Below are positions 1-42,594 of a stretch of 64,000 nucleotides of DNA, piece by piece. How positions within the stretch are numbered: the first letter of the stretch is position 1; every line of letters starts with the position of its first letter. Where the stretch lies: NCBI GenBank assembly GCA_023078555.1, contig CM041197.1, positions 12,001,257 through 12,065,256 of the forward strand, given 5' to 3'. Below the pieces are notes generated by a model. It did not search any database. It saw only the letters and a list, made by a program, of their open reading frames with translations, and was not told the origin of the DNA. Both the position numbers and the translations under genes were made by a program. The stretch is from Ulva prolifera. Taxonomy: Eukaryota; Chlorophyta; Ulvophyceae; Ulvales; Ulvaceae.

Positions 1-3000
1 CGTAAGTCCCTAGCATTGTACGTAAGTCTCGAGCAGTGTACGTAAGTCCCGAGCAGTGTACATAAGTCCCGAGCAGTGTACGTAAGTCCCGAGCACCATA
101 CATAAGTCGCTAGCAGTGTACGTAAGTCCCGAGCACCATACATAAGTCCCGAGCATTGTACGTAAGTCCCGAGCACCATACGTAAGTCCCGAGCAGTGTA
201 CGTAAGTCCCGAGCAGTGTACGTAAGTCCCGAGCACCATACATAAGTCCCGAGCAGTGTACGTAAGTCCCGAGCACCATACATAAGTCCCGAGCAGTGTA
301 CGTAAGTCCCGAGCACCATACATAAGTCCCGAGCAGTGTACGTAAGTCCCGAGCAGTGTACGTAAGTCCCGAGCACCATACATAAGTCCCGAGCAGTGTA
401 CGTAAGTCCCGAGCAGTGTACATAAGTCCCGAGCACCTTACATAAGTCCCTAGCATTGTACGTAAGTCCCGAGCAGTGTGCGTAAGTCCCGAGCAGTGTA
501 CGTAAGTCCCGAGCACCATACATAAGTCCCGAGCAGTGTACGTAAGTCCCGAGCACCATACATAAGTCCCGAGCAGTGTACGTAAGTCCCGAGCAGTGTA
601 CGTAAGTCCCGAGCACCATACATAAGTCCGGAGCAGTGTACGTAAGTCCCGAGCAGTGTACGTAAGTCCCGAGCACCATACATAAGTCCCGAGCAGTGTA
701 CGTAAGTCCCGAGCACCATACATAAGCCGCTAGCAGTGTACGTAAGTCCCGAGCACCATACATAATTCCCGAGCACTGTACGTAAGTCCCGAGCAGTGTA
801 CGTAAGTCCCGAGCACCATACATAAGTCCCGATCAGTGTACGTAAGTCCCGAGCACCATACATAAGTCCCGAGCAGTGTACGTAAGTCCCTAGCATTGTA
901 CGTAAGTCTCGAGCAGTGTACGTAAGTCCCGAGCAGTGTACATAAGTCCCGAGCAGTGTACGTAAGTCCCGAGCACCATACATAAGTCGCTAGCAGTGTA
1001 CGTAAGTCCCGAGCACCATACATAAGTCCCGAGCAGTGTACGTAAGTCCCGAGCACCATACATAAGTCCCGAGCAGTGTACGTAAGTCCCGAGCAGTGTA
1101 CGTAAGTCCCGAGCACCATACATAAGTCCCGAGCAGTGTACGTAAGTCCCTAGCATTGTACGTAAGTCTCGAGCAGTGTACGTAAGTCCCGAGCAGTGTA
1201 CATAAGTCCCGAGCAGTGTACGTAAGTCCCGAGCACCATACATAAGTCGCTAGCAGTGTACGTAAGTCCCGAGCACCATACATAAGTCCCGAGCATTGTA
1301 CGCAAGTCCCGAGCACCATACGTAAGTCCCGAGCAGTGTACGTAAGTCCCGAGCAGTGCACGTAAGTCCCGAGCACCATACATAAGTCCCGAGCAGTGTA
1401 CGTAAGTCCCGAGCACCATACATAAGTCCCGAGCAGTGTACGTAAGTCCCGAGCACCATACATAAGTCCCGAGCAGTGTACATAAGTCCCGAGCAGTGTG
1501 CGTAAGTCCCGAGCAGTGTACGTAAGTCCCGAGCACCATACATAAGTCCCTAGCAGTGTACGTAAGTCCCGAGCACCATACATAAGTCCCGAGCACCATA
1601 CATAAGTCCCTAGCAGTGTACGTAAGTCCCGAGCACCATACATAAGTCGCTAGCAGTGTACGTAAGTCCCTAGCATTGTACGTAAGTCTCGAGCAGTGTA
1701 CGTAAGTCCCGAGCAGTGTACATAAGTCCCGAGCAGTGTACGTAAGTCCCGAGCACCATACATAAGTCGCTAGCAGTGTACGTAAGTCCCGAGCACCATA
1801 CATAAGTCCCGAGCATTGTACGTAAGTCCCGAGCACCATACGTAAGTCCCGAGCAGTGTACGTAAGTCCCGAGCAGTGTACGTAAGTCCCGAGCACCATA
1901 CATAAGTCCCGAGCAGTGTACGTAAGTCCCGAGTACCATACATAAGTCCCGAGCAGTGTACGTAAGTCCCGAGCACCATACATAAGTCCCGAGCAGTGTA
2001 CGTAAGTCCCGAGCAGTGTACGTAAGTCCCGAGCACCATACATAAGTCCCGAGCAGTGTACGTAAGTCCCGAGCAGTGTACATAAGTCCCGAGCACCTTA
2101 CATAAGTCCCTAGCATTGTACGTAAGTCCCGAGCAGTGTGCGTAAGTCCCGAGCAGTGTACGTAAGTCCCGAGCACCATACATAAGTCCCTAGCAGTGTA
2201 CGTAAGTCCCGAGCACCATACATAAGTCCCGAGCACCATACATAAGTCCCTAGCAGTGTACGTAAGTCCCGAGCACCATACATAAGTCCCGATCAGTGTA
2301 CGTAAGTCCCGAGCACCATACATAAGTCCCGAGCAGTGTACGTAAGTCCCTAGCATTGTACGTAAGTCTCGAGCAGTGTACGTAAGTCCCGAGCAGTGTA
2401 CATAAGTCCCGAGCAGTGTACGTAAGTCCCGAGCACCATACATAAGTCGCTAGCAGTGTACGTAAGTCCCGAGCACCATACATAAGTCCCGAGCAGTGTA
2501 CGTAAGTCCCGAGCACCATACATAAGTCCCGAGCAGTGTACGTAAGTCCCGAGCACCATACATAAGTCCCGAGCAGTGTACATAAGTCCCGAGCAGTGTG
2601 CGTAAGTCCCGAGCAGTGTACGTAAGTCCCGAGCACCATACATAAGTCCCTAGCAGTGTACGTAAGTCCCGAGCACCATACATAAGTCCCGAGCACCATA
2701 CATAAGTCCCTAGCAGTGTACGTAAGTCCCGAGCACCATACATAAGTCGCTAGCAGTGTACGTAAGTCCCTAGCATTGTACGTAAGTCTCGAGCAGTGTA
2801 CGTAAGTCCCGAGCAGTGTACATAAGTCCCGAGCAGTGTACGTAAGTCCCGAGCACCATACATAAGTCGCTAGCAGTGTACGTAAGTCCCGAGCACCATA
2901 CATAAGTCCCGAGCATTGTACGTAAGTCCCGAGCACCATACGTAAGTCCCGAGCAGTGTACGTAAGTCCCGAGCAGTGTACGTAAGTCCCGAGCACCATA

Positions 3001-5992
3001 CATAAGTCCCGAGCAGTGTACGTAAGTCCCGAGTACCATACATAAGTCCCGAGCAGTGTACGTAAGTCCCGAGCACCATACATAAGTCCCGAGCAGTGTA
3101 CGTAAGTCCCGAGCAGTGTACGTAAGTCCCGAGCACCATACATAAGTCCCGAGCAGTGTACGTAAGTCCCGAGCAGTGTACATAAGTCCCGAGCACCTTA
3201 CATAAGTCCCTAGCATTGTACGTAAGTCCCAAGCAGTGTGCGTAAGTCCCGAGCAGTGTACGTAAGTCCCGAGCACCATACATAAGTCCCTAGCAGTGTA
3301 CGTAAGTCCCGAGCACCATACATAAGTCCCGAGCAGTGTACGTAAGTCCCGAGCAGTGTACATAAGTCCCGAGCACCTTACATAAGTCCCTAGCATTGTA
3401 CGTAAGTCCCGAGCAGTGTACGTAAGTCCCGAGCAGTGCACGTAAGTCCCGAGCACCATACATAAGTCCCGAGCAGTGTACGTAAGTCCCGAGCACCATA
3501 CATAAGTCCCGAGCAGTGTACGTAAGTCCCGAGCAGTGTACGTAAGTCCCGAGCACCATACATAAGTCCCGAGCAGTGTACGTAAGTCCCGAGCACCATA
3601 CATAAGTCCTGAGCAGTGTACGTAAGTCCCGAGCAGTGTACGTAAGTCCCGAGCACCATACATAAGTCCCGAGCAGTGTACGTAAGTCCCTAGCATTGTA
3701 CGTAAGTCTCGAGCAGTGTACGTAAGTCCCGAGCAGTGTACATAAGTTCCGAGCAGTGTACGTAAGTCTCGAGCAGTGTACGTAAGTCCCGAGCAGTGTA
3801 CATAAGTCCCGAGCAGTGTACGTAAGTCCCGAGCACCATACATAAGTCGCTAGCAGTGTACGTAAGTCCCGAGCACCATACATAAGTCCCGAGCATTGTA
3901 CGTAAGTCCCGAGCACCATACATAAGTCCCTAGCAGTGTACGTAAGTCCCGAGCACCATACATAAGTCCCGAGCACCATACATAAGTCCCGAGCATTGTA
4001 CGTAAGTCCCGAGCACCATACGTAAGTCCCGAGCAGTGTACGTAAGTCCCGAGCAGTGTACGTAAGTCCCGAGCACCATACATAAGTCCCGAGCAGTGTA
4101 CGTAAGTCCCGAGCAGTGTACGTAAGTCCCGAGCAGTGTACATAAGTCCCGAGCACCTTACATAAGTCCCTAGCATTGTACGTAAGTCCCGAGCAGTGTG
4201 CGTAAGTCCCGAGCAGTGTACGTAAGTCCCGAGCACCATACATAAGTCCCGAGCACCATACATAAGTCCCTAGCAGTGTACGTAAGTCCCGAGCACCATA
4301 CATAAGTCCCGAGCAGTGTACGTAAGTCCCGAGCACCATACATAAGTCCTGAGCAGTGTACGTAAGTCCCGAGCAGTGTACGTAAGTCCCGAGCACCATA
4401 CATAAGTCCCGAGCAGTGTACGTAAGTCCCTAGCATTGTACGTAAGTCTCGAGCAGTGTACGTAAGTCCCGAGCACCATACATAAGTCCCGAGCAGTGTA
4501 CGTAAGTCCCGAGCAGTGTACATAAGTCCCAAGCACCTTACATAAGTCCCTAGCATTGTACGTAAGTCCCGAGCAGTGTGCGTAAGTCCCGAGCAGTGTA
4601 CGTAAGTCCCGAGCACCATACATAAGTCCCTAGCAGTGTACGTAAGTCCCGAGCACCATACATAAGTCCCGAGCACCATACATAAGTCCCGAGCACCATA
4701 CATAAGTCCCGAGCACCATACATAAGTCCCGAGCAGTGTACGTAAGTCCCGAGCACCATACATAAGTCCCGAGCAGTGTACGTAAGTCCCGAGCAGTGTA
4801 CGTAAGTCCCGAGCACCATACATAAGTCCCGAGCAGTGTACGTAAGTCCCGAGCAGTGTACGTAAGTCCCGAGCACCATACATAAGTCCCGAGCAGTGTA
4901 CGTAAGTCCCGAGCACCATACATAAGTCCCGAGCAGTGTACGTAAGTCCCGAGCAGTGTACGTAAGTCCCGAGCACCATACATAAGTCCCGAGCAGTGTA
5001 CGTAAGTCCCTAGCATTGTACGTAAGTCTCGAGCAGTGTACGTAAGTCCCGAGCAGTGTACATAAGTTCCGAGCAGTGTACGTAAGTCTCGAGCAGTGTA
5101 CGTAAGTCCCGAGCAGTGTACATAAGTCCCGAGCAGTGTACGTAAGTCCCGAGCACCATACATAAGTCGCGAGCAGTGTACGTAAGTCCCGAGCACCATA
5201 CATAAGTCCCGAGCATTGTACGTAAGTCCCGAGCACCATACATAAGTCCCTAGCAGTGTACGTAAGTCCCGAGCACCATACATAAGTCCCGAGCACCATA
5301 CATAAGTCCCGAGCATTGTACGGAAGTCCCGAGCACCATACGTAAGTCCCGAGCAGTGTACGTAAGTCCCGAGCAGTGTACGTAAGTCCCGAGCACCATA
5401 CATAAGTCCCGAGCAGTGTACGTAAGTCCCGAGCAGTGTACGTAAGTCCCGAGCAGTGTACATAAGTCCCGAGCACCTTACATAAGTCCCTAGCATTGTA
5501 CGTAAGTCCCGAGCAGTGTGCGTAAGTCCCGAGCAGTGTACGTAAGTCCCGAGCATTGTACGGAAGTCCCGAGCACCATACATAAGTCCCTAGCAGTGTA
5601 CGTAAGTCCCGAGCACCATACATAAGTCCCGATCAGTGTACGTAAGTCCCGAGCACCATACATAAGTCCCGAGCAGTGTACGTAAGTCCCGAGCAGTGTA
5701 CGTAAGTCCCGAGCACCATACATAAGTCCCTAGCATTGTACGTAAGTCCCGAGCAGTGTGCGTAAGTCCCGAGCAGTGTACGTAAGTCCCGAGCACCATA
5801 CATAAGTCCCGAGCACCATACATAAGTCCCTAGCAGTGTACGTAAGTCCCGAGCACCATACATAAGTCCCGATCAGTGTACGTAAGTCCCGAGCACCATA
5901 CATAAGTCCCGAGCAGTGTACGTAAGTCCCGAGCAGTGTACGTAAGTCCCGAGCACCATACATAAGTCCCGAGCAGTGTACGTAAGTCCCGA
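1..5992 (+). repeat. 20-bp satellite array, left block (continues beyond window start)
   Basis: About 300 head-to-tail copies of a 20-bp unit, consensus CGTAAGTCCCGAGCAGTGTA. The unit is best read as a near-constant 12-mer AAGTCCCGAGCA followed by one of a few 8-mers: GTGTACGT, CCATACAT, GTGTACAT, TTGTACGT, and rarely CCATACGT, CCTTACAT or GTGTGCGT. The array is already in progress at base 1, so its true start is outside the window. Higher-order duplication is visible: 1361-2230 and 2461-3330 are almost the same, offset 1,100 bp, and parts of 3660-4000 recur 1,320 bp later. The minus strand has few stops in any frame, so long apparent ORFs arise; I treat them as artefacts. No unrelated sequence interrupts this block. 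Confidence 0.98.
5990..5992. other. target site duplication, left copy (CGA)
   Basis: The bases CGA directly precede the CACTA terminus and recur directly after the right terminus at 20631-20633. A 3-bp duplication is the length expected for CACTA/EnSpm insertion. Joining the flanks through a single CGA rebuilds an exact 20-bp satellite unit, so the duplication was made by insertion into the array. Confidence 0.93.
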
Positions 5993-6015
5993 CACTACAA
6001 GGATGGTAGGCAGGT
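5993..6015 (+). repeat. left terminal inverted repeat of the CACTA element
   Basis: Starts CACTACAAGGATG, the superfamily's hallmark CACTA followed by the ACAA seen in many members. It pairs with 20608-20630 over 23 bases with two mismatches, at repeat positions 14 and 15. It is the expected cleavage site for the Tnp2 transposase. Confidence 0.95.
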
Positions 6016-6142
6016 CGGCGTGTACACTCGCGACACATGTTTTGCTCGCTGGCACATTCGCGCACTGTTCACGCACTCTTCAAACACATTCCGTATCTGC
6101 GTGAAGTGCGTGCCAAAAATGTAGGTGAGATGTGTTAGCGGA
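6016..6142. promoter_or_regulatory. left subterminal region with short recurring motifs
   Basis: CACTA elements carry short repeated motifs just inside the ends, bound by the TnpA-type protein. Here I see GTGTACAC at 6020-6027, several GCAC and CGCACT words, and a GAAGTGCGTG. The right end has GTGCACAT (20351 and 20372), GTGTACAT (20423) and two more GAAGTG. The shared words suggest binding sites, but they are short and no single strict consensus is certain. Confidence 0.45.
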
Positions 6143-6423
6143 GTGTTGTGGTGGTGCGCACCTGCAGCGCACCTCATTGAGGAAATGCACATGCCGCGAC
6201 CGCGCTTTCACGCTCCTACGAACAGCATATTATTTGTGTTGTGGTGGTGCGCACCTGCAGCGCACCTCATGGAGCGAAATGCACATGCCGCGAACGCGCT
6301 TTCACGCTCCTACGAACAGCATATTATTTGTGTTGTGGTGGTGCGCACCTGCAGCGCACCTCATGGAGCGAAATGCACATGCCGCGAACGCGCTTTCACG
6401 CTCCTTTGAACAGCACATTTTTT
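6143..6423 (+). repeat. 93-bp tandem repeat, three copies, left subterminal
   Basis: Three consecutive copies begin with GTGTTGTGGTGGTGCGCACC at 6143, 6236 and 6330, so the period is 93-94 bp. Each contains the inverted GGTGCGCACC word, then CTGCAGCGCACC, then ATGCACATG, then GCTTTCACGCTCC. The third copy degenerates at its end. The position just inside the terminus fits a subterminal repeat block of a CACTA element. Short plus-strand ORFs pass through it only because the unit lacks stops. Confidence 0.9.
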
Positions 6424-7568
6424 GCTGGGCTGATTGCGCTCGTCATGCGCATTGTGCCGCCAGAGCCACTATCAGCCGAGCTCCACTGGAACGCGCATCT
6501 ACACTCCTTCGGCGTGTACATGCTGGTTGCACATCTCCACTATACTGCGTGCCCTGCGCCACGCCCGTCGTTGCATTCGTAGCTGGCTCAAGGTGGCATA
6601 CTCTCGCGGCTCTCGGGCAAATGCCACCTTTTAATAATGTCAAATGCACTGTAGCTTAAGAAGAAGCTTTGTATGCGCCGCTGTGGTACAGGGCCCCAAT
6701 CTGCGCAGCAGTCGACACAGCTGCAGGTGCGTATTCCGCCTCGTACGGAGTGCAAACGACGATTAGCGCAAAATTCCGAGACAGTATCCTAACCTGTTGT
6801 GCCCTCTTCCGAGCTGCACGGTGCCCGAGGTCCTTGATCGTATCTGTTGCTGGGGGGGTCTCTATAGCTACGGCGGTATGGGATGCAGTATTTGCTTCAC
6901 CACCAGCTGTCGTATGTACAGCGATAATCCCTGCGGTATCTGCAATAGTATCTGTGGTGACCTCAGCTGGACGAGTATACAATGATGCATTCTTGTATGT
7001 CAATTATCTGGCATGCTTAAATGCTTCACACTTGCAGGCACCGTGTCTGTAGACACCAAGACAGGGACCATCCTGGTTGTGCCACTGATGACATGGGTGT
7101 ATTTGTATGTATTCGATGTTGCTTTGCAACAGTAGGTGCACTAGTGAAGGACTGTGGGTACTAGCCACGATCTAGCAGTGTAACGTAACTTCCAGTCACA
7201 CTTAGCTGCAAACAGGCCTGGGCACCACCTTTACTAGCCGTGCAGTGTTCAGGATCTTTCATGTTTTTGCCGAATGTTTAAATGAGTTTGATGTTTAGCT
7301 AGGTGAGTGCTACTTTGAACCAGCCTCGAATGTTTGCGAATCTGCACTGACTGTGGCCACATGGTTGAAGAGCGTGGTTGAGTCCATATACAGAACATGC
7401 GAATGCAGCATTCATGCATCATGGACCATGAGTCACAGGTGGTGGACATATCCCATTCGGAATACCGTTGGCCGCGATTCCAGTACACTACCAAAAACAA
7501 ATACTGTCATGCAAGGTCCTCCAAAGCAGAAGGCAGACTTATTACAACGACCTGCAGATCACATGCTA
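6424..7568. other. element interior without a recognised gene; possible minus-strand exon
   Basis: About 1.1 kb. I recognise no protein family. On the minus strand, 7003 to 6656 is open for 115 codons and encodes an Ala/Thr-rich stretch (ETPPATDTIKDLGHRAARKR) ending in TAA. It could be a 3' exon of the minus-strand gene further right (7569-8753), but I could not connect them by phase-compatible splice sites. A competing plus-strand frame covers 6669-7052, so neither is certain. From 7053 to 7568 I see no convincing coding sequence. Confidence 0.3.
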
Positions 7569-8753
7569 TCAACGGCTGCGACTACGAGAGTGGGCCTGGA
7601 TTGGCAGCTGCACCGGTCTTTGTTTCCTAGCGAAATGCTGAACCGTCTGGCGCTGGCCCCCATAGTCGTCAAGGCCAGGCGTTCGAACTAGATTGTTAAA
7701 GAACTGGTAATAGCCAGGATCTACGTCCTCTTCTGGAGGAGGTTGCACAGGCAAGTGGCTGAGTTCGCTGTCCGGCCAGAGTACCCCCCCTTCTCTAGTC
7801 AGCTCCCCGTTTTCTAAGTGCTGGCCCCAAGAGCAACCCATAAGCAACACCATCCTGCAATCACCTCAGCATTTTAGACCTTTGTGGAGTTGGCCGTGCC
7901 ACAGGTATAAGAAGGAGCGGGACGGTGAAGCACACCCATCATCTAGATAAGTATCAGACTGAAGCATCCACCTCAAGGTGGACGCCCCATCCCGATCCTC
8001 GACCTCAAAGGCGCGGATTGCCTCTCCCACAAATGAGGCCATCGTGCCGGAATCTTGAAACATCCATCGTGGATGCTTCACGAGCACGCGGCATAGGAAT
8101 TCATCAGGGGGGTCGTGCTCGGGTACTTCACTGGAGTCATGCTGTGATGCACCGATTCCCCCTTCCTGTCGCCGCAACATGTGGCGGTTCCGGAGAACGT
8201 GGAACTGAAATTGACTGGCGTCTACGCCCAAGTAGACGCCAGTCATCAGCGCTGTCAAGAACGGCAGGAACCTGCGGATCACATCCGTGATCCGCAAGAC
8301 CCACTGATTGCAGGCCGCAACGTCCTCCGCCAACTCTGCAGATGCACACGCACGGAGGTCCATGAACAGATTGCATGTCGTATCTACCATGGCCTCGAAT
8401 ATGTGCGGGGTGGGACGCCCATTGCGGGCAAGGTGCTGGATGGCGGAGTGGACGGTGTCCGCAACCGACGGGGTCATGACCACATTCGGGCACTCGTATT
8501 GGCGCCCTTGAGCCTCGCACTTGTCCACATCAATGTCTTCCTGGACGTAGTACATGCCCCACCATGCTCGGCCTTCTTGGGTCCCTATCGCTACTGGTCT
8601 CTCCATAGCTGTGTCTCTGCCGGTCCATCCGGGGAATACATACTGCATCCTCGTCCCCTCCTCATCTATCCGGACGGGGGCCTCTTGAATCAATCGCACA
8701 ACATCGTACTTGCTTTTGTACCGTTTGGAAGGTGCTTTCGAAAAACCCTGCAT
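7569..8753 (-). CDS. unrecognised ORF carried by the transposon (7866-8753, possibly extended to 7569)
   Basis: From ATG at 8753 a minus-strand frame runs 295 codons to a TGA at 7866-7868. The same frame then stays open for another ~99 codons, with ATG at 7853, to a stop at 7569. The first part is of mixed composition, with a helix-rich middle (around residues 130-190, FLPFLTALMTGVYLGVDASQ) and several Cys and Trp. The second part is Pro/Glu-rich (VQPPPEEDVDPGYY) and ends HSRSRSR. I recognise no family and assign no function. Extending across the TGA is inference: it could be a nonsense change, a true C-terminus followed by chance openness, or part of an intron. No GT-AG intron that removes the TGA in frame was found. 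The gene points the same way as the transposase but is separated from it by the 344-bp array. It may be cargo unique to this element lineage. Confidence 0.5.
8212..8245. repeat. perfect 14-bp inverted repeat with 6-nt loop
   Basis: TGACTGGCGTCTAC and its exact reverse complement flank a 6-base loop (GCCCAA). It lies inside the unrecognised minus-strand ORF, so the bases are also codons. A second perfect hairpin follows within 30 bp (8273-8296). Confidence 0.9.
8273..8296. repeat. perfect 10-bp inverted repeat with 4-nt loop
   Basis: TGCGGATCAC and GTGATCCGCA flank ATCC. It lies within the same ORF as the 14-bp hairpin at 8212-8245. Two exact hairpins this close together in coding sequence is unusual. 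Confidence 0.9.
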
Positions 8754-9097
8754 TGTGTGGACGGTCGCTATGGATCAGCCTAGGGAGAATGTCTGGTCGG
8801 CGTCAAAAAGCTACCTCTGGAATTACTGCGCGTCTGGTACGATGTTAACGTGATTGTCTTACTGCCTCTTTGGTGAGTCCTTATGATGGCTTGACGACAG
8901 TAGCGCAACACATGCCTGTACAGATCTGTAGAGCCCGATACCTCCTACGCGGCCTGGCACTGAGTGAACTAATAACTGGATCGCTCGGCCAACCGTTATC
9001 CTTCAAACAGCCACGCACCTAACGCAAATTACACGTGTGTCGTTCATTTGGTGTCACTGCTGCATGTATTACTCGGGGGCAGAAGTGTTGCACAACT
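8754..9097. other. spacer between the unrecognised ORF and the 344-bp array
   Basis: About 340 bp lying upstream of the minus-strand ORF that starts at 8753, so it would hold that gene's promoter. I see no clear TATA box, repeat or ORF here. Only weak similarity to the 344-bp unit appears close to its right edge. Confidence 0.5.
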
Positions 9098-12000
9098 GTA
9101 GCGGTCTCTCCCGAGCAGCCCTCTTGCTGCACGACCCGGGACTGAAGCACAGATGCATCGCACATCGAATAGGTATAAGAATGGGCGGTTTGTGGGCCAC
9201 CAAAAAATTTTGATGTCTGCTCTCCCGGGAGGGCTGCAGCCTACCATTATTTAGTCCAGACTCAAGCTGCCAGAGCTGATGTCTGCATATGCATCGAGCC
9301 GCGAACCTTGGCTAGGAATGCAGTGGATATGTTTGCCAGTCGAATGGTGAAAGAATTAATATGATAGCTTGAGAGTCCTGTCAGGATTGCACTGTTGCAC
9401 GAGTGTGCGTGTTTGGCAAAATGCTGGCACGAGGCACGCATGTAGCAGTCTCTCCCGAGCAGCCCTCTTGCTGCACGACCCGGGACTGAAGCACAGATGC
9501 ATCACACATCGAATAGGTATAAGAATGGGCGGTTTGTGGGCCACCAAAAAATTTTGATGTCTGCTCTCCCGGGAGGGCTGCAGCCTACCATTATTTAGTC
9601 CAGACTCAAGCTGCCAGAGCTGATGTCTGCATATGCATCGGGCCGTGAACCTTGGCTGAGAATGCAGTGGATATGTTTGCCAGTCGAATGGTGAAAGAAT
9701 TAATATGATAGCTTGAGAGTCCTGTCAGGATTGCACTGTTGCACGAGTGTGCGTGTTTGGCAAAATGCTGGCACGAGGCACGCATGTAGCAGTCTCTCCC
9801 GAGCAGCCCTCTTGCTGCACGACCCGGGACTGAAGCACAGATGCATCACACATCGAATAGGTATAAGAATGGGCGGTTTGTGGGCCACCAAAAAATTTTG
9901 ATGTCTGCTCTCCCGGGAGGGCTGCAGCCTACCATTATTTAGTCCAGACTCAAGCTGCCAGAGCTGATGTCTGCATATGCATCGAGCCGCTGAACCTTGG
10001 CTGAGAATGCAGTGGATATGTTTGCCAGTCGAATGGTGAAAGAATTAATAGGATAGCTTGAGAGTCCTGTCAGGATTGCACTGTTGCACGAGTGTGCGTG
10101 TTTGGCAAAATGCTGGCACGAGGCACGCATGTAGCAGTCTCTCCCGATGCAGCCCTCTTGCTGCACGACCCGGGACTGAAGCACAGATGCATCACACATC
10201 GAATAGGTATAAGAATGGGCGGTTTGTGGGCCACCAAAAAATTTTGATGTCTGCTCTCCCGGGAGGGCTGCAGCCTACCATTATTTAGTCCAGACTCAAG
10301 CTGCCAGAGCTGATGTCTGCATATGCATCGGGCCGTGAACCTTGGCTGAGAATGCAGTGGATATGTTTGCCAGTCGAATGGTGAAAGAATTAATATGATA
10401 GCTTGAGAGTCCTGTCAGGATTGCACTGTTGCACGAGTGTGCGTGTTTGGCAAAATGCTGGCACGAGGCACGCATGTAGCAGTCTCTCCCGAGCAGCCCT
10501 CTTGCTGCACGACCCGGGACTGAAGCACAGATGCATCACACATCGAATAGGTATAAGAATGGGCGGTTTGTGGGCCACCAAAAAATTTTGATGTCTGCTC
10601 TCCCGGGAGGGCTGCAGCCTACCATTATTTAGTCCAGACTCAAGCTGCCAGAGCTGATGTCTGCATATGCATCGAGCCGCGAACCTTGGCTGAGAATGCA
10701 GTGGTTATGTTTGCCAGTCGAATGGTGAAAGAATTAATAGGATAGCTTGAGAGTCCTGTCAGGATTGCACTGTTGCACGAGTGTGCGTGTTTGGCAAAAT
10801 GCTGGCACGAGGCACGCATGTAGCAGTCTCTCCCGAGCAGCCCTCTTGCTGCAGGACCCGGGACTCAAGCACAGATGCATCACACATCGAATAGGTATAA
10901 GAATGGGCGGTTTGTGGGCCACCAAAAAATTTTGATGTCTGCTCTCCCGGGAGGGCTGCAGCCTACCATTATTTAGTCCAGACTCAAGCTGCCAGAGCTG
11001 ATGTCTGCATATGCATCGAGCCGCGAACCTTGGCTGAGAATGCAGTGGATATGTTTGCCAGTCGAATGGTGAAAGAATTAATAGGATAGCTTGAGAGTCC
11101 TGTCAGGATTGCACTGTTGCACGAGTGTGCGTGTTTGGCAAAATGCTGGCACGAGGCACGCATGTAGCAGTCTCTCCCGAGCAGCCCTCTTGCTGCACGA
11201 CCCGGGACTGAAGCACAGATGCATCACACATCGAATAGGTATAAGAATGGGCGGTTTGTGGGCCACCAAAAAATTTTGATGTCTGCTCTCCCGGGAGGGC
11301 TGCAGCCTACCATTATTTAGTCCAGACTCAAGCTGCCAGAGCTGATGTCTGCATATGCATCGGGCCGTGAACCTTGGCTGAGAATGCAGTGGATATGTTT
11401 GCCAGTCGAATGGTGAAAGAATTAATATGATAGCTTGAGAGTCCTGTCAGGATTGCACTGTTGCACGAGTGTGCGTGTTTGGCAAAATGCTGGCACGAGG
11501 CACGCATGTAGCAGTCTCTCCCGAGCAGCCCTCTTGCTGCACGACCCGGGACTGAAGCACAGATGCATCACACATCGAATAGGTATAAGAATGGGCGGTT
11601 TGTGGGCCACCAAAAAATTTTGATGTCTGCTCTCCCGGGAGGGCTGCAGCCTACCATTATTTAGTCCAGACTCAAGCTGCCAGAGCTGATGTCTGCATAT
11701 GCATCGAGCCGCGAACCTTGGCTGAGAATGCAGTGGTTATGTTTGCCAGTCGAATGGTGAAAGAATTAATAGGATAGCTTGAGAGTCCTGTCAGGATTGC
11801 ACTGTTGCACGAGTGTGCGTGTTTGGCAAAATGCTGGCACGAGGCACGCATGTAGCAGTCTCTCCCGAGCAGCCCTCTTGCTGCACGACCCGGGACTGAA
11901 GCACAGATGCATCACACATCGAATAGGTATAAGAATGGGCGGTTTGTGGGCCACCAAAAAATTTTGATGTCTGCTCTCCCGGGAGGGCTGCAGCCTACCA

Positions 12001-12268
12001 TTATTTAGTCCAGACTCAAGCTGCCAGAGCTGATGTCTGCATATGCATCGGGCCGTGAACCTTGGCTGAGAATGCAGTGGATATGTTTGCCAGTCGAATG
12101 GTGAAAGAATTAATATGATAGCTTGAGAGTCCTGTCAGGATTGCACTGTTGCACGAGTGTGCGTGTTTGGCAAAATGCTGGCACGAGGCACGCATGTAGC
12201 AGTCTCTCCCGAGCAGCCCTCTTGCTGCACGACCCGGGACTCAAGCACAGATGCATCACACATCGAAT
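9098..12268. repeat. 344-bp tandem array inside the transposon, about 9.2 copies
   Basis: The anchor CCCGAGCAGCCCTCTTGCTG recurs close to every 344 bases (anchors near 9111, 9455, 9799, 10144, 10489, 10833, 11177, 11521, 11865 and 12209; two intervals are 345 through single-base insertions). Copies are nearly identical. Two variants differ at linked sites: one reads CATCGAGCCGCGAACC and usually AATAGGATAG, the other CATCGGGCCGTGAACC and AATATGATAG. Their order is roughly A B A B A A B A B, a dimeric higher-order repeat. Each unit holds the palindromes CTCCCGGGAG and TGCATATGCA. The 62-63-codon ORFs that recur on both strands are products of the repetition. The first and last copies are partial. 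Confidence 0.97.
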
Positions 12269-12319
12269 GTGTACATAACCAGACCTGATTCTCAGCACAA
12301 AGCAACAGCCACCCTGTAC

Positions 12320-15300
12320 CTATCGCTTTACACCGGCATACCTACTTGACAGTTTTGCAGAAACACAAAAGAACCTTGTGTCATTTCTCTCGCGTGTCGG
12401 TACTGCCTGCGAGTCGATTGCCCTAAGATCTAGCACAAACACCCCCTCAAACCGGGTGCCAGGTTTGGAGGGGTCCAACTTGTCAACTTTCACAAATTCG
12501 TGCAGCCGGCTGATACCCGGGTCTGCAGGCCGAACTCCCGGTCCATGCTGGTCCACACTTGTGTACAGGTTAGCCACCCCCAGCCGCAAATCAGCTGGGT
12601 GCTGCCGATCGCAGCCCGGACGATATGCCCCCTCTGGCAGCATACTACTCGTGAAAGTTGCGCGCACAAAGTACAAAAACTGCCCCACATACACCTTCAT
12701 TTCAGTGCTCCCGTCTGCATAAGCTACACTGTATCGGATCAGGAACCACTGATTGTTCTTCCTGGTCTGCGTTTTGCACTGCACACTGCTCATGGTATCC
12801 CCGATTGGAAGGTCAGCCCGGGTGAACTTCTGCAACTCCACCTCAACTCCAGCCTTGCCCGCACCGAGAGGGCCTTCCAACCCCAGTTCATGCAGAATGA
12901 GGCCCTCTCTTTCAGCAGCCTCGGTGTCTTTGAACACTGGCCACCCGTCCTGTAGGAGGGTCGTGTCTTCAAATAGGAGCAGAGGCAATCCCTTCATCAG
13001 CTGAGCATCCCCCGAAGCGCCCGGGGTGGGGCTCCACAGCACCTCTCCCTTTTCCCCGGCATCTACCTTCTTGGGTGCTCCCAGTAGCAGCGCCTGGTCT
13101 GGGAGGGGCATGTCACGTGAACACTGGCGACGTCTCTTGACGGCCCGCAGCGCTTCAGCCAGTGACACACAGTGACACCCGTCTGGAGTCAACTTCACCC
13201 GGCGGCATGCTAGGGTCAGTAGCCAATCGTGCACAAATAGCAGTTCAGGATAGGCAGTACTGCGGTACTTCACCATTCGCTTTACGAGCTGAACCATGCG
13301 TTCCACCCAGAACTCTGACCACGTATAGCCAGGCCCACATGCCCGAACCTGGTCTGCCAGGTGCATGGCAGCAAGATGCAGCTTGTATGTCGTCAAAAAT
13401 CTGCCCCCGTAGGCCTGCATTCTCGAACATGTTGGCAAAGTGCTTTAGAGACGGCAGTCACACAAGCTTCACAAGTCTGCAATACGCATACGCAGGTCCA
13501 TCAGCTGTCTGTTTGCCCAAGCGAGTACATCTGCAGCGTGCGGACCTTCTCTACAATTCTGCCATACTCCAACAGATCTTTCTGTGCCTGCAATATTCGC
13601 TCTTCGGTGTGTTGACCATCATGCCACTTCATGAAATAAAGGACCGAGGACCGCAGCAGTGTCCACTGCTCGTCGAAAGCCTTCTTCAGCCCGAGATGCT
13701 CTCGTTTCCACGGTAGGTCGTGGAGGAGAAACATGGAGAATGTCTCGGTGAATGCCAGCCATTCCTCCATCATCCACAGTCCTCTGTACCTGCACCAGCA
13801 GCAAACGATAGAGTTCATCGACACACTAGTGTGCCCCACAGTACTGTGGGGCATGCAATGCAACAGTAACGATTGCTTCACAGAAGGTGCATGTCGAGAC
13901 ACCGACAGAGATGGCAGGAGACTCACCGAATCAAGTCGGTGTACGGCTTGCCAAACAACTCTGTCACCAGAATTTCAGATCCCTTTTTTGAGATGTGTTG
14001 CCGGATGTAAGTCGGGAGAACATGTCCTCCAGAAGACACCTGCCTCAGCCACATGCGCCAGAAGTCCTTGAGGATGCCCAGCAAGAAGATGTGTGCAATC
14101 CCGTATCGAAAGAAATGACACGGGCTGCACACTTAAGATTAAGCAGTCAGTACTGCCCGTCCTTGCAGGAAACAGGTACATATTCGGGAAGACAGTCCGA
14201 ACAGCAAGAGACATACTTCACGTAGGACAGGCTCTGGAACATCGGTTCTCCGCGAGCTCCGAGCTCCTTCTGCATCTGGTTGGCCCACTCCTCCCGCTGG
14301 GTCTGATCCTTCTTTTCGACTGCTTCCAGTGATGGGTGCAGCACCTGGTCTTGATAGAGTTTTGCCTTTCTACCGCGCATCTTGATTTCAAGGTCGCTTA
14401 GCTTCAGCACATTGTCTGTCAGCCAGGTACTTGGGGCGACATCGATGGGATCAGTGAAGGCTGTCCTCGCAAGGTAACGCCCATCATCCTTCTGGAGGTA
14501 ACCTAGCGGCACGCGAGGATGGTCCCCAGAGGTATCAACAGCAGCCAATTCCTGTGGATGCAACGTCTGACCTGCCATTGGTGCACAGTGCCCAGCTGCG
14601 GCATAACATGGGACCCTCTGTTTCATTCCAGCATCAAACCCCAACCACCTGCATACATACGGCAGCTGTATATATCTGCATATATCTGCAGATACACCAG
14701 GTGGGGTCTCAAGTGTAGCCCCTGCACGCGTCTGGATCTGGAATATCCGCCTTCCAGTCCACACAGCAACGTACCGGACAGTGTTGGCTTCGTGGTTGTG
14801 GGCCCCCGACATCGCACACGCAAAGCAGGCATTCGGCCCGGTATGATGCAAGCCGCCTGTTAACTTGGTCATGAACGGGATGTCTCCCTGTGCACACACC
14901 AGAACCGGCCACACTTTCAGCAGCTGTGGCCCGCCAACATCGACCAGGAGAGGTGTGGAACCTGGTCGGCCTGTAGGTTCACTCAGTGTGAGAGACTGCT
15001 CAACAGGAGTGGAATGTCGTTGAAGTCAGTAGGCATGTACAGCAACACCACACCTGGATCATGTTTCTCAAAGAATTCTATGATGGGGGCCATGACATCA
15101 TGGTAAGAGCCAGGCTCTGTTGGTCCTTGAACGATGCACACCGGGGACCATGTTATATTCTTGGCTTGCAAACCCTCTGGCGCATCAGTCAACTTCAGCC
15201 CACAAGCCAACGTACCGTACACTTTGTTGGTGTAGATCTGGACACCATCCCCCCCTGCAGGAACCGGTGGCATTGTCACACTAGAGCTAGGCAGCAACTA

Positions 15301-16794
15301 CATGCCGTATTACTGGCCCAGGTTAGGTGCACCGTACCCACTGAAAACGGAATCACAATTTCATTCTCCTCAACGGAGGGGTTGCTGAGCTTGTGGCCTA
15401 TAGCGGCGTCCACGTGCAGTCCGGCGGGGCTGCTCAAAAAAGATGCAGGGTCTTGGTAGGCCTGTTTTCGCTGCTCACGGTATGCATCGAGGTCTTCCAA
15501 TACTGGATCCAGAAGGTCCAATACCGTTGCCCGTACATCAAAGTAGTAAATATTCCGCTTGGGGAACACCCCACCAGTTTCAGAAACGTCAAAACGCCGG
15601 TTGCCACAGCCTTCAGCAGCACACACTGCATCTGCATTTCCATGATACTGAGCCGGATCCATTGTTGGAAAGACAGTCCAACACTTGTCACATATATGTT
15701 TAGTACACGTGGTGCTTGATTCCACGTCCAATACCGCCTTCACCATATGGTATGATGCTGGGTACAAATTGTCAGGCGGCAGGATTAGGTGGTGCATCAT
15801 CGCACAGTACTGATCAATCACTGTGTCTGTGACTCTGTGATCGTTCTTCATCGTCGCCAACCAGTAACAGGCCTGCACAACGGTGACGGCATGCCCCGGT
15901 GTGATGGGATCCCCTCGGTGCGCACACAACCATGCGCCGGTCCCCTTCTTAGGCGGTCGACCACCCTGTTGCGCAGCATGGACTTCCTGCAACCGCCGTT
16001 GCGCCGGAGCCAGATGGACACCGATGGGCCTAGGTGCATACACACCCTGAGCGGCTGCGGCCTCAGCGAGCTCTTGACCCGGTAATGGGCCATGATCGCC
16101 AGCTGGCCGAGGGGCGATGTCATCCTCGTCTTCCTCATCCAGGTCCTCTAGTCCGCCTCGGGCTCTCCAGTCGTCATCTCCGATCAACTCCTGCAACAAC
16201 ACAGTTGTAGCAACATACGTCCTAGCCCACTCGGTCATGCATAAATATGCACCGGTACTAGAGAGGTACCTCTCTGATGTACTGCTCTAACATGGACTTG
16301 TGCAACTCAGCTGCGGGATCAGGATGTCACACCTCATAGGCAGCATTGAAGGCAGTCGCCCTTGCCATAGCGATTAAATCGGCCTCTTCTGCTGTGAAAT
16401 ACACAGGTGCATCTGCCTCAGTGCCTACCGCCCAATCTTCCGTGCATTCTGGAATGCTGTACGTGTATGCCTCTGGGGAGCCGGAGCCAGCAGCAGGCTC
16501 GTCTTGCAGAGATGCCCCCAAGGGCAGCCTCGTGTCGCAGCCGGCAAATGGACCGCCAACGTCGGTGTCGGTATGATGAGCCACACCCAGGGCAGCCTGG
16601 CACTCGTGCCGCGTTGCATGCGGTCTGCTAGAGGGCGCGAAAGGAGTGTGACAGTGCTTGCATCTGTACCTCTGAGCACCATTTGCGTCAGGGTCACTGT
16701 AAATACCTTTCTGCGCAAGACTGTACTCCATGTCAGCCTTTGTCCTCCTAACACGTTTCGCCATGGGCTCCGTCGCTACGTGATCGGCCTGCAT
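12320..16794 (-). CDS. tnp2: Tnp2-type CACTA transposase, seven exons
   Basis: It would excise and reinsert the element by cutting at the CACTA ends in the nucleus. Exons read by eye, high to low: 16794-16270, 16190-15338, 15254-15054, 14970-about 14222, about 14124-13927, 13789-13546, 13414-12320 (stop TAG). Introns are 79-137 nt, GT-AG, and phase-matched except between exons 4 and 5, where no canonical pair keeps the frame. About 1,290 residues, in the size range of plant TnpD. Exon 1 has a basic start (MAKRVRRTKAD) and a Cys45/Cys48/His59-63 finger. Exon 2 has the zinc-binding region before the Tnp2 core (HICDKCW, CAAEGCGNRRF). Exons 3-4 hold the core (GDGVQIYTNK, VWPVLVCAQGDIPFMTKLTG), whose aspartates are likely catalytic. 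Exon 7 opens with a DUF4218-like stretch (CGPGYTWSEFWVERMVQ). An in-frame TGA at 16327-16329 interrupts exon 1; the frame stays open on both sides. A restart at the ATG in HKSMLEQYIRE is possible. Confidence 0.85.
13832..13853. repeat. perfect 22-bp palindrome within a transposase intron
   Basis: TGCCCCACAGT followed directly by its reverse complement, with no loop. It lies wholly inside the 137-nt intron 13790-13926. An RNA hairpin here could affect splicing of that intron, but this is inference. Confidence 0.9.
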
Positions 16795-17174
16795 ACTTGA
16801 ACGGTTGCGGATGCAGGTGGTGCGAGCGGCGATTAATCGTAAAACGCAATTGTACTGGCTCCACTGTGCTCCATATCAAACGCTTCCAATCACCAAGACG
16901 CTAATTATAATACCATCTCTAGATCTCTCACCCGATCCGTGATGCGCACGACAGAGCACTCGCCTTGCATCTTTGGCCCACAGTCCAGCGACTTCATCAA
17001 AGCTGGTCGTGGCGACTAGAGGCTTAAGCCTCTAGTCGCCACTGCCACGCGGTCCCGCATTCAAACCGCAAGCTACGTACAAATATCCAGCATGTACAAA
17101 CTACCACCGATCACCTGCCACCGCGCACTGTCACACAACCCAGTTCAAGGAAACCTTTCATAGGCGTAGGCATC
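16795..17174. promoter_or_regulatory. divergent intergenic region between transposase and TnpA-like gene
   Basis: 380 bp separate the two start codons, which face away from each other, so both promoters must lie here. An AT-rich ATTATAATA stands at about 16905-16913, the only TATA-like word I notice. The 34-bp palindrome at 17009-17042 lies nearer the plus-strand gene. Shared control of both genes by one bound factor is a natural inference. Confidence 0.6.
17009..17042. promoter_or_regulatory. perfect 34-bp palindrome, candidate operator
   Basis: The half-site GTGGCGACTAGAGGCTT is followed directly by its exact reverse complement, with no mismatch and no spacer. It lies between the divergent transposase and coiled-coil genes, 133 bp upstream of the plus-strand start codon. 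Dimeric DNA-binding proteins favour such sites, and the neighbouring plus-strand gene encodes a protein with a probable dimerising coiled coil. It could equally form a cruciform or an RNA hairpin. Confidence 0.75.
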
Positions 17175-19779
17175 ATGGCAAATGTGCTTTTGAAATGCAA
17201 CAATGTTGACGGCAAGTCGCAGCAGATTTTCAGCAAGTGTCATACCAAACCGCGCGATCAAAATTCGTTCATGCTCACATTGCTAGTGAATTGTGGCATC
17301 AATGTATCCCACGATACCGATGGGTCCGAATGGAAGCGGCACAAGTTCAGAGTGACTCCCACGGGATCAAAGTCTACAGGCGCGACCGGAGCCATTTACA
17401 CAGGCGCTGATTTACTGGAGTTGTTGTGTGACACCGTTGCATTACCCGAGGGAGCCGATCCCGTAACACCAGAGCTGCCTGGCAAGGTCTGGGCGGTTTC
17501 GAGTTTGATGGGGCCAACTCCGGCTGCCACGAGCACGTTCGATCGTGGCGGCAGTCGGTCATGCGTCAGCGACGGGACGACTGCAAGGAACGTGGACTCC
17601 AAAGTTGCTAAATTGAGGGGCGGTATCTTCATGTGCGCGAAGATCCGGGAGACATTGAAAGCACTACCCGAGGGGTATAAAAAAAGCGCCAAGGCGAAAA
17701 AGGTACTTGACGACACGACTACGCCAGACGGCTGTTGGCTTCAGGTGACGCCCGTTGAAGGAATGGTTGAGTTTGCAAAAGAGGTGCGCAGAGCTACCCC
17801 GATTGCAAGTGCACGTGCATGTGGTCGATTGCAAGTGCATGTGCTAAGATGTCTGCTATACTGACATAGGCAATGGAGAATGGCGAGACAGACAAAGAGA
17901 AGGAGGCCGGACGCAAAATTCATAATCTGACACAGGCATGGGAACAGATGATGATGGGGTATACGACGCTTGTTGGTAGCAGGTACTCTTGCCCTCACTG
18001 TGACCGGAACCTGCTTCCTCCGGATGGTTCAACACAATGCACTGTGCAGGACTGCGGTCAACGGACGCATGGGCAATAACAATGTCAACATCCGCAAATT
18101 CGCAGCAGCACTGCGAGCTAATCCCGCGGCAACACACGAGGCAAAAGGACCAGGGAAATCCTTAATGGAACTGTCCATGCAGTTTGACAGAAAGCTGGCA
18201 CGTGCTCTAGAGCCTGTTCAAGTGGATTGTGCGAATGGGCCATGTGCTGATAATGATGGGATGCGTGCGTTACAGGTCAGGCACGATGGTGGTACAGCCG
18301 CAGTGGCTGGCCATGTACAGAAGACAAGGCTGGAATGGGCCTTTGATGACGGCCACTATCCTCCGTGGCAGCCTGATGAACCTAAGTACAAGTTCGAGCC
18401 CAAATGGGAGATCACTGCTAAGGATGCCAATGTGTCCAACATCGAGAGAACAGGTCAGACACCAGAGAAAGATCATCTTGAACCTGACCCCATCGCCCGA
18501 GCCATCCCCCTGCAGCTTCCCCCGGGTGTAGCTGGCAACCTGAAGCAGGTACGATGGTGTCAAGTGCAGGCATCATCGAAGTCTGTGTACTAGCAGCCAA
18601 ATTGAGACTATGAGATGCTGCTCGCAGTTGTTGGCAGCCCAATATCTGATAGCTTAAGAACATGTTCAGGTCATGCACGGCAACACGAGATGTATCGCCA
18701 CGGAGAGGAAGATACCAGAGAGGCTGAGGTACATGGGATTGACCCCAGAGACGGCCAACCTGAGGTACTTACCACCTCCTGAGGTCGGCAGGAAGAGACC
18801 AGAACCCGATCCGATTGCTGGCGTCGGTGCATCTACGGAATGGCGCCCTCCTAGCAAATTGGCCTCCGAGTTTGATGTGGGCACTCACGGCGAGGGGGCC
18901 CACAGAGCCGTTTCAGAGGTAACATGCTCTCGACTTCTAATACCTGCAAAGGCACGGGGTGCCAGCATGTCATGGGCGGTATGATTGTACTGCCTGCCCC
19001 ATTCAAGGACTGATTGTGTCTGCTAATAGCAGGTCATGCAAGTCACTGGTCATGGACATCAGACCCCGTATGTCTCCCCTGCAATGTTCTGTGCACAGTT
19101 GCCGACCCAGGCTGCGGAGACAGACCAGACACACAACGCAACAGTGGTGCCATCCGTGGCCGTTGACAGTGCAGCTGTGGATGATATGATGGCGATGATT
19201 GGCATCGACGATGTAGACCTGATGGGCCTACCTTTGAGCGACAAGGAGGCAAATGGGGATGGGACACTTCCTTCCCCTGATGTCCAGGTGCGGTCAGATC
19301 TCCACTAGACTGCTATGTGCATGTATGCACCAACTCAGCATTGCCTAATACTCAGTGATCTGCACCGCACACAACATGTCCAACCCATACTCAGCCTGCA
19401 CAGCTGCAGGTCAGCTCCACAAGCCACCCCGTCGTTGACCGTAAGGAATTCCTGAAGAGTGAACTGGCTCGCCTGGCCAAGGAACTGACATCAATTCAGA
19501 GCAAGATCGACGAGCAAGAAGCAGTGATTGAAGAATGCAAGCAGGGCTGTGCTGGCAAGCGCAACAATGTCAAGCCCAAAATGCGGACCGCACAGGACAC
19601 AGTCGGGAAACTGAAGGTGTGGCTCAGCCTACGTTTGCAATGTGTTCTTCAGGTCAAAATGACTATAGGGGATAATAAGCCGTGTGGCGGAGCTGCAGGA
19701 AACCAAGATGGAACTAATGGAGCAAAAGATGGCCTACTTTGAGGAGCTGCAGAATCTAGTGACTCAATGGGATAATTGA
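17175..19779 (+). CDS. TnpA-like coiled-coil protein of the CACTA element, seven exons
   Basis: Seven exons join in one frame: 17175-17783, 17870-17982, 18050-18548, 18670-18918, 19033-19287, 19410-19616, 19669-19779 (stop TGA). Every donor is AG|GT and every acceptor AG; introns are 52-121 nt, all phase 0 except the second (phase 2). The total is 2,043 nt, about 680 residues. Exon 1 is soluble and mixed; exons 3-5 are Pro-rich and acidic, probably disordered (HLEPDPIARAIPLQLPPG, VDDMMAMIGIDDVDLMG). Exons 6-7 form a clear heptad-rich coiled coil (SELARLAKELTSIQSKIDEQ, AELQETKMELMEQKM). If intron 2 is kept, a zinc-ribbon-like CPHCDRNLLPPDGSTQC follows but the frame soon ends, so alternative forms are possible. 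No homology is recognised. The TnpA-like role (binding subterminal repeats, pairing the ends) is inferred from position, size and C-terminal dimerisation, as in En/Spm TnpA. Unlike En/Spm it is divergent from the transposase. Confidence 0.72.
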
Positions 19780-20250
19780 AGTGTGCTGCCGAGCTGGCGG
19801 GAGCCTTTACCTGTTTCCGAGAGATACTGCAAAGGGGAAGGTACACTCCAGCACTGGTTGCTGGGATCACGAGGCAGAGGGTGATGGTGCACGGATGGCG
19901 GCATTTTTTCTTATTATTTTTATTGATGCCAACTGCACCGCCTGAGCCATGGCTCAGCTGGCGCTGGCCAGCTGCTATAGCTACAGCCTACATGTGATGG
20001 CTGCTTCGGTACCTCACCGATTGCCAGTGCGACGGCACGGACACGAGGGCCAGAGTGGCATGATAGTATCGACAATAACTATTTTCCGGACAATAGGAGC
20101 TCCAGATGATGTAAAGCAGCTGCAGCCTATACACGGACCGCATGACCGGGTATCTGCTATCGCATGTCGTGTGCACCAACTGTACATCATCGTGGTATAA
20201 CAGCACTCGTTGCTTACGCCTGACGAGTACATCATTGGTGAAAGAGTGTC
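19780..20250. other. 3' region of the TnpA-like gene; no ORF recognised
   Basis: A T-rich run (about 19905-19926) and small inverted repeats (GAGCCATGGCTC, and CAGCTGGC with GCCAGCTG) lie around 19940-19975. TGTAA occurs at 20110-20114; this word is the usual polyadenylation signal in green algae, so it is a candidate 3' end for the plus-strand gene. I see nothing else. Confidence 0.4.
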
Positions 20251-20607
20251 AGTAATGTGCCGGTTTTTAAGGACGTGAACACGCCACGCGAGGAATGTTC
20301 TCGTCGAGCGCATCTTGCCGGTCCACGTGCACTGCATGATGCAGGCCGAAGTGCACATCACCCAGGCACTCGTGCACATTTCACACGATTGAATGGACAG
20401 CTCGCGCACTCGTCGCACAGAAGTGTACATTTTCCACAGTCGCAGCGCGTCGACCGTGAAACATCACCGTTCACATCCCTGTCAGAAAGCACGTTAGCTG
20501 TACAGCACTCGGCCACTCCTGCGTCGATCGCCATACAGTTCATACACATCTGGACACTGTTTGCATACTGTTCAGCGGGCAATGGGTCACTGATAATGTA
20601 CAGCATC
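20251..20607. promoter_or_regulatory. right subterminal region with short recurring motifs
   Basis: GTGCACAT occurs at 20351-20358 and 20372-20379, GTGTACAT at 20423-20430, and related GTGCACTG near 20327. GAAGTG precedes two of them. Similar words occur inside the left end. They are candidate binding sites for the element's own DNA-binding protein. No ORF here is convincing; the minus-strand frame entering from the satellite is an artefact. Confidence 0.45.
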
Positions 20608-20630
20608 ACCTGCCTGGCATCCTTGTAGTG
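20608..20630 (-). repeat. right terminal inverted repeat of the CACTA element
   Basis: Ends CATCCTTGTAGTG, the exact inverse of the left terminus for 13 bases. Two mismatches follow, then eight further matches. The base after it (20631) begins the second CGA target copy. Confidence 0.95.
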
Positions 20631-20633
20631 CGA
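20631..20633. other. target site duplication, right copy (CGA)
   Basis: CGA repeats the three bases before the element's left end (5990-5992) and is followed by GCAGTGTACATAAG, the rest of a satellite unit. Confidence 0.93.
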
Positions 20634-39990: not shown

Positions 39991-42594
39991 CCATACATAA
40001 GTCCCTAGCAGTGTACGTAAGTCCCGAGAAGTGTACATAAGTCCCGAGCAGTGTACGTAAGTCCCGAGCAGTGTACGTACGTCCCGAGCACCATACATAA
40101 GTCCCGAGCAGTGTACGTAAGTCCTGAGCAGTGTACGTAAGTCCCGAGCACCATACATAAGTCACGAGCATCGTACGTAAGTCCCGAGCAGTGTACGTAA
40201 GTCCCGAGCACCATACATAGGTCCCGAGCAGTGTACGTAAGTCCCGAGCAGTGTACGTAAGTCCCGAGCAGTGTACGTAAGTCCCGAGCACCATACATAA
40301 GTCCCGAGCAGTGTACGTAAGTCCCGAGCAGTGTACATAAGTCCCGAGCACCATACATAAGTCCCTAGCAGTGTACGTAAGTCCCGAGCACCATACATAA
40401 GTCCCGAGCAGTGTACGTAAGTCCCGAGCAGTGTACGTAAGTCCCGAGCAGTGTACATAAGTCCCGAGCACCATACATAAGTCCCGAGCATTGTACGTAA
40501 GTCCCGAGCACCATACGTAAGTCCCGAGCAGTGTACGTAAGTCCCGAGCAGTGTACGTAAGTCCCGAGCACCATACATAAGTCCCGAGCAGTGTACGTAA
40601 GTCCCGAGCACCATACATAAGTCCCGAGCAGTGTACGTAAGTCCCGAGCAGTGTACGTAAGTCCCGAGCACCATACATAAGTCCCTAGCAGTGTACGTAA
40701 GTCCCGAGCACCATACATAAGTCCCTATCACCATACATAAGTCCCTAGCAGTGTACGTAAGTCCCGAGCATTGTACGTAAGTCCCGAGAAGTGTACATAA
40801 GTCCCGAGCAGTGTACGTAAGTCCCGAGCAGTGTACGTACGTCCCGAGCACCATACATAAGTCCCGAGCACCATACATAAGTCCCGAGCAGTGTACGTAA
40901 GTCCCGAGCAGTGTGCGTAAGTCCCGAGCAGTGTACGTAAGTCCCGAGCACCATACATAAGTCCCTAGCAGTGTATGTAAGTCCCGAGCACCATACATAA
41001 GTCCCGAGCACCATACATAAGTCCCGAGCAGTGTACGTAAGTCCCGAGCACCATACATAAGTCCCTAGCAGTGTACGTAAGTCCCGAGCACCATACATAA
41101 GTCCCGAGCAGTGTACGTAAGTCCCGAGCACCATACAAAAGTCCCGAGCATTGTACGTAAGTCCCGAGCAGTGTACGTAAGTCCCGAGCAGTGTACGTAA
41201 GTCCCGAGCACCATACATAAGTCCCGAGCAGTGTACGTAAGTCCCGAGCACCATACATAAGTCCCGAGCAGTGTACGTAAGTCCCGAGCACCATACATAA
41301 GTCCCGAGCAGTGTACGTAAGTCCCGAGCACCATACATAAGTCCCTAGCACCATACATAAGTCCCGAGCAGTGTACGTAAGTCCCGAGCAGTGTACGTAA
41401 GTCCCGTGCACGTAAGTACCGAGCACCATACATAAGTCCCGAGCAGTGTACGTAAGTACCGAGCACCATACATAAGTCCCTAGCAGTGTACGTAAGTCCC
41501 GAGCAGTGTACGTAAGTCCCGAGCACCATACATAAGTCCCTAGCAGTGTACGTAAGTCCCGAGCACCATACAAAAGTCCCTAGCATTGTACGTAAGTCCC
41601 TAGCAGTGTACGTAAGTCCCGAGCAGTGTACGTAAGTCCCGAGCACCATACAAAAGTCCCGAGCATTGTACGTAAGTCCCGAGCAGTGTACGTAAGTCCC
41701 GAGCAGTGTACGTAAGTCCCGAGCACCATACATAAGTCCCGAGCAGTGTACGTAAGTCCCGAGCACCATACATAAGTCCCGAGCAGTGTACGTAAGTCCC
41801 GAGCACCATACATAAGTCCCTAGCAGTGTACGTAAGTCCCGAGCAGTGTACGTAAGTCCCGAGCACCATACATAAGTCCCTAGCAGTGTACGTAAGTCCC
41901 GAGCACCATACAAAAGTCCCTAGCATTGTACGTAAGTCCCGAGCAGTGTACGTAAGTCCCGAGCAGTGTACGTAAGTCCCGAGCACCATACATAAGTCCC
42001 GAGCAGTGTACGTAAGTACCGAGCACCATACATAAGTCCCGAGCATTGTACGTAAGTCCCGAGCACCATACGTAAGTCCCGAGCAGTGTACGTAAGTCCC
42101 GAGCAGTGTACGTAAGTCCCGTGCACGTAAGTCCCGAGCAGTGTACGTAAGTCCCGAGCAGTGTACGTAAGTCCCGAGCAGTGTACGTAAGTCCCGAGCA
42201 CCATACATAAGTCCCGAGCAGTGTACGTAAGTACCGAGCACCATACATAAGTCCCGAGCATTGTACGTAAGTCCCGAGCACCATACGTAAGTCCCGAGCA
42301 GTGTACGTAAGTCCCGAGCAGTGTACGTAAGTCCCGAGCACCATACATAAGTCCCGAGCAGTGTACGTAAGTCCCGAGCAGTGTACGTAAGTCCCGAGCA
42401 GTGTACATAAGTCCCGAGCACCATACATAAGTCCCTAGCATTGTACGTAAGTCCCGAGCAGTGTACGTAAGTCCCGAGCAGTGTACGTAAGTCCCGAGCA
42501 CCATACATAAGTCCCGAGCAGTGTACGTAAGTCCCGAGCACCATACATAAGTCCCGAGCAGTGTACGTAAGTCCCGAGCACCATACGTAAGTCC

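Follow-up and report, generated by a model that had tools for sequence, protein, structure and literature searches.

The window, by which we mean the whole 64-kb stretch of DNA analyzed here, contains an element of 14,638 bp with CACTA termini that interrupts a 20-bp satellite. The features to which the text refers are as follows.

1 to 5992, no strand: 20-bp satellite, left flank (Tandem Repeats Finder), its final 3 bases being the left CGA
5990 to 5992, no strand: left CGA copy of the target-site duplication, junction read directly
5993 to 20630, no strand: CACTA element, 14,638 bp, both ends present
5993 to 6015, plus strand: left terminal inverted repeat, CACTACAAGGATGGTAGGCAGGT, paired with the right end
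6143 to 6424, no strand: left subterminal tandem repeat, 94 bp x 3.0, with the palindrome GGTGCGCACC in every copy
7866 to 8753, minus strand: third ORF, ATG to stop, 295 aa (302 aa from stop to stop)
9097 to 12268, no strand: internal tandem array, 344 bp x 9.2, 98% matches, directly 3' of the transposase stop codon
12320 to 16794, minus strand: predicted transposase gene, 7 exons and 6 GT-AG introns, 1,240 aa (codon-and-splice model)
17175 to 19779, plus strand: divergent second gene, spliced, model uncertain (codon score), TNPA/ORF2-like by position
20608 to 20630, minus strand: right terminal inverted repeat, paired with the left end
20631 to 20633, no strand: right CGA copy of the target-site duplication, junction read directly
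20631 to 59816, no strand: 20-bp satellite, right flank (Tandem Repeats Finder), its opening 3 bases being the right CGA; it holds paralogous empty sites

In the satellite, the main 20-bp units are of two types, CGAGCAGTGTACGTAAGTCC and CGAGCACCATACATAAGTCC, and the phase is shifted within the right-hand array by small length changes. Among self-match distances of 1 to 2999 bp, the best were 40, 60, 100, and 140 bp in the right array and 1660 and 1320 bp in the left array, indicating that the two arrays differ in higher-order structure. All minus-strand frames of the two commonest units are free of stop codons, and stop-free minus-strand stretches in the right array reach 804 codons (41603 to 44014); we attribute these long stretches to the repetition itself and do not regard them as genes. 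Derivation of the satellite from the element was considered but found no support, the 20-bp unit having no blastn-short match in the window outside its own array. Farther along, 2,239 bp of nonsatellite sequence separates the 20-bp satellite from a second tandem array (62056 to 63963; 97 bp x 19.7, 95% matches, about 64% GC).

Termini, target-site duplication, and empty site

The CACTA superfamily is described as having CACTA/TAGTG ends, a 3-bp duplication, and a DDD/E transposase (PMC4158355). The element starts at 5993 with CACTACAAGGATG and is closed at 20630 by the complement of CACTACAAGGATG, giving the CACTA/EnSpm termini CACTA...TAGTG inside inverted repeats, with the 3-bp duplication CGA on either side. 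The 21/23 inverted repeats and the flanking CGA copies claimed in the earlier note are indeed there: all 13 of the outermost bases pair, as do 21 of the outermost 23, and the pairing extends more weakly to 34 bases (79%). When 23-mers were drawn from the element in 200,000 random pairs, the top inverted match was 16/23, reached by 2 pairs. CACTACAAG and its complement each occur once in the window, both at the element ends. The span of 5990 to 20633 first given for the element has sound edges but takes in both CGA copies, and the element proper is 5993 to 20630.

The repeated nature of the target allowed the site to be reconstructed. The flanks were joined by script with 0 to 23 bp removed (24 registers), and each junction was sought in the arrays. 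With 3 bp removed, 124 array sites carry the identical 20 bp across the junction, the best of them matching at 120/120 positions; with 23 bp removed, that is, one satellite period more, 15 array sites do so, the best also at 120/120. None of the other 22 registers gave an array site with the junction 20 bp. Phase alone sets the duplication length only modulo 20, because the target repeats every 20 bp, but a 23-bp duplication leaves one mismatch and a 3-bp duplication none, so that only 3 bp is an exact fit. The 77-bp site closed with 3 bp removed has 9 exact occurrences in the arrays, and the longest perfect copy spanning the closed junction is 217 bp, at 27730 in the right array; the claim that the flanks close into a perfect satellite unit is thereby borne out. 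The element joined the satellite at one CGA, and both its boundaries and its preinsertion site are legible to the base.

Satellite arrays are prone to misassembly, and this general risk is what speaks for an artifact in which two satellite arrays were joined around an unrelated contig. Such a join would not be expected to end exactly at 21/23 inverted CACTA repeats, nor to leave an exact 3-bp duplication in satellite register, and we consider an artifact of this kind close to impossible. The earlier note also saw in this site an unusually clean record of target choice. Cleanness is not in question, but only one insertion is on record, in an array occupying 45,178 bp of the window in total, and a preference for the target is not to be inferred from it.

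Coding regions and repeats within the element

Long minus-strand ORFs between 16875 and 12320 can be joined through GT-AG introns into one gene, whose splice sites are computed predictions. The model scored 171.9; the highest score among 15 shuffles was 40.8, and the opposite strand scored 6.0. The codon table behind these scores was trained partly on the same ORFs. Four of the 31 stop-to-stop ORFs listed (374, 336, 302, and 292 aa) exceed 287 aa, the longest found in 200 base shuffles of the element. An alternative donor for the second intron (15337), picked by eye, retains more sequence and gives a protein of 1,287 aa, which was the version used for the catalytic-pattern search and the full-model Pfam search.

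This predicted protein contains, in order, DGVQ, GDIP, CFAC, HLAAMH, and WVER, with 20 residues from the last H to the E, and so displays the D, D, C(2)C, H(4)H, E succession of a CMC-type DDE transposase as defined in PMC12730594 (first D at 15249, second D at 14884, CFAC at 14827, HLAAMH at 13378, and E at 13303). The pattern was composed after the sequence had been read; its loose form occurs in 278 of 2000 protein shuffles and its strict form in 0 of 5000. The H(4)H-E segment matches Pfam DUF4218 with an E value of 0.0047 and 17.2 bits, below the curated cutoff of 27, and the match is weaker in the full model (E value of 0.016). DUF4218 is given as one of four domains in plant CACTA ORF1 (PMC8978399). 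Pfam Transposase_21 had no match in the predicted protein at E values up to 10, placing this transposase far from the plant model, and DUF4216 was absent from its Pfam matches. A PDB sequence search with one transposase ORF (14147 to 15025) returned nothing better than an E value of 0.54. An RNHCP domain at the N terminus was rejected as a weak match (E value of 0.0026) below its cutoff. From its sequence, we read the minus-strand gene as a divergent but genuine CACTA transposase.

The same residues leave some room for a CMC-related superfamily other than EnSpm/CACTA proper, such as Plavaka, ESTA, Mirage, Chapaev, or Transib. The C(2)C-H(3-4)H-E signature is reported as common to these groups, EnSpm, Mirage, Chapaev, and Transib sharing a C(2)C and an H(3-4)H that lie between the second D and the last E (PMC12730594), and the failure to detect Transposase_21 points the same way. 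The CACTA...TAGTG termini and the 3-bp duplication argue against it. As summarized in that source, PlavakaA has TGT ends with 2 bp, PlavakaB has CATCA ends with 2 or 3 bp, and ESTA has TA duplications (PMC12730594); neither of the Plavaka arrangements (TGT...ACA with 2 bp, or CATCA...TGATG with 2 or 3 bp) is seen here, where the ends are CACTA...TAGTG. Assignment to one of these other groups is highly unlikely.

When codons learned from the transposase gene were applied to the divergently oriented plus-strand region (17175 to 19779), it scored 40.6, and none of 15 shuffles scored above 11.2. Its best model starts at the ATG at 17271, with an in-frame upstream ATG at 17175, and the product ends in a charged, coiled-coil-like stretch recognized by eye, matches to coiled-coil families being weak and below cutoff. 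The position of the gene would suit an accessory ORF2/TNPA protein, a putative DNA-binding partner of the transposase. Between the two divergent genes lies a 22-bp inverted repeat without a spacer (17004 to 17047; 91% complementary), possibly part of a shared promoter. The third ORF has a modest codon score (9.1, compared to a maximum of 6.5 in 15 shuffles) and no Pfam match, and its structure prediction without an alignment was uninformative (mean pLDDT of 40.2).

The gene models also bear on whether the element could have moved by itself. A nonautonomous or decayed CACTA element, mobilized by the transposase of another element, would fit with the single copy observed, with gene models that depend on computed introns, with a third ORF lacking a Pfam match, and with a plus-strand gene that has only matches below cutoff. 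Against it stand long, open transposase exons whose codon signal is strong and which retain the catalytic residues, and we give this scenario an appreciable but clearly minor weight. The element was probably autonomous at the time of its insertion.

Repeats occur both near the left end and in the interior. The palindrome GGTGCGCACC of the 94-bp repeat is found at 6153, 6246, and 6340 and nowhere else in the window, and a counterpart of this repeat sought at the right end was not found. A comparison of the outermost 700 bp on either side, inverted repeats excluded, revealed a single 9-base word in common. TGTACA occurs 13 times, and 6 of these sites fall within 600 bp of an end (5993 to 6592 and 20031 to 20630), 2 on the left and 4 on the right, an end enrichment with a P value of 0.0003, or about 0.02 after correction for 64 palindromes. 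By sequence, this hexamer is a possible, weak candidate for a motif common to both ends and a putative site of an accessory protein. The 344-bp array sits between the transposase stop and the third ORF, with one spacing of 346 in place of 344; kinship with other sequence in the window found no support, blastn-short giving no match outside the array itself.

Interpretation and comparison with known CACTA elements

The locus is very probably a full-length CACTA (EnSpm) DNA transposon that entered one unit of a preexisting 20-bp satellite by cut-and-paste insertion. The element ends, the duplication, the empty site, the coding regions, and the catalytic signature can all be read directly in the window. 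A staggered 3-bp cut at CGA within one satellite unit would have been followed by insertion of the element, and its own minus-strand DDE transposase, binding the CACTA ends, may have done both the cutting and the joining. The plus-strand product might have served as the accessory TNPA/ORF2-like DNA-binding partner, for which the subterminal palindromes are likely sites, and the 344-bp array would be a tandem expansion that arose inside the element. The earlier note's description of a complete CACTA transposon in a 20-bp satellite, with base-exact edges, is supported, the more so for the exact paralogous empty sites and the catalytic signature in the predicted transposase.

Searches for relatives were made in collections of viral and prokaryotic contigs, in which absence is uninformative about eukaryotic relatives. 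The inverted-repeat pattern was found in 0 stretches of the genome_contigs collection, and a shortened pattern with 16 fixed bases was found in 1 stretch of the viral_contigs collection. This lone viral match was rejected as a relative and taken as chance, since CTTGTAGTG is missing from the 6,624 bases examined of its 48,849-base contig. The satellite pattern had 0 matches in viral_contigs, and four exon or ORF queries, three against viral_contigs and one against genome_contigs, with the plus-strand gene left out, gave no confirmed relative.

A more ambitious reading would place the element in a deeply divergent CACTA lineage of an unsampled eukaryote, a host to which the introns and satellites would point, and would give that lineage three genes (a transposase, a divergently oriented coiled-coil partner, and a third gene) and a preference for one phase of the host 20-bp satellite as a safe harbor, where its insertions would do no harm; we think this unlikely. 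As a full-length CACTA transposon, the element is a clean example of a well-known kind and not a new kind of system, with unusually legible boundaries, and a single copy leaves existing knowledge of CACTA elements unchanged. It is usable as a reference copy of a divergent CACTA, since its edges, its preinsertion site, and its apparent full gene set come from one window. If a family landed often in such a tandem array, its insertion phase could be counted statistically, since nearly every unit is an empty site.

The length of 14.6 kb, noted earlier as large for the superfamily, is large but falls within the published range, which includes the 20.5-kb Tgmt* (PMC2613891) and a Chenopodium quinoa element of 16,523 bp (PMC8978399). 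Tgmt* of soybean is likewise described as a CACTA element: its inverted ends are 13 bp long, its duplication is 3 bp, its subterminal repeats are asymmetric and can form palindromes, and it combines a transposase with a presumed DNA-binding function, as is predicted here from sequence (PMC2613891). In its published description, Tgmt* differs not only in size (20.5 kb, compared to 14,638 bp) but also in gene content, its single large gene giving rise to alternatively spliced products where the prediction here is of two divergent genes plus a third ORF, and in carrying subterminal repeats at both borders, which are obvious only on the left here (PMC2613891). The quinoa CACTA-like element also carries a multikilobase internal tandem array after its coding sequence; that array is 5,550 bp long with a 171-bp unit, compared to a 344-bp unit repeated 9.2 times here, and a Transposase_21 domain is recognized in the quinoa element but not in this one (PMC8978399). 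SmTRC1 of Schistosoma mansoni, a CACTA-related element, has CCC ends and 2-bp duplications (7 of 14 copies), in contrast to the CACTA ends and 3 bp found here (PMC1636069). Three of its copies lie in genomic repeats, and its duplication was demonstrated through paralogous sequences, so that the use of repeats as paralogous empty sites has a precedent in SmTRC1 (PMC1636069).
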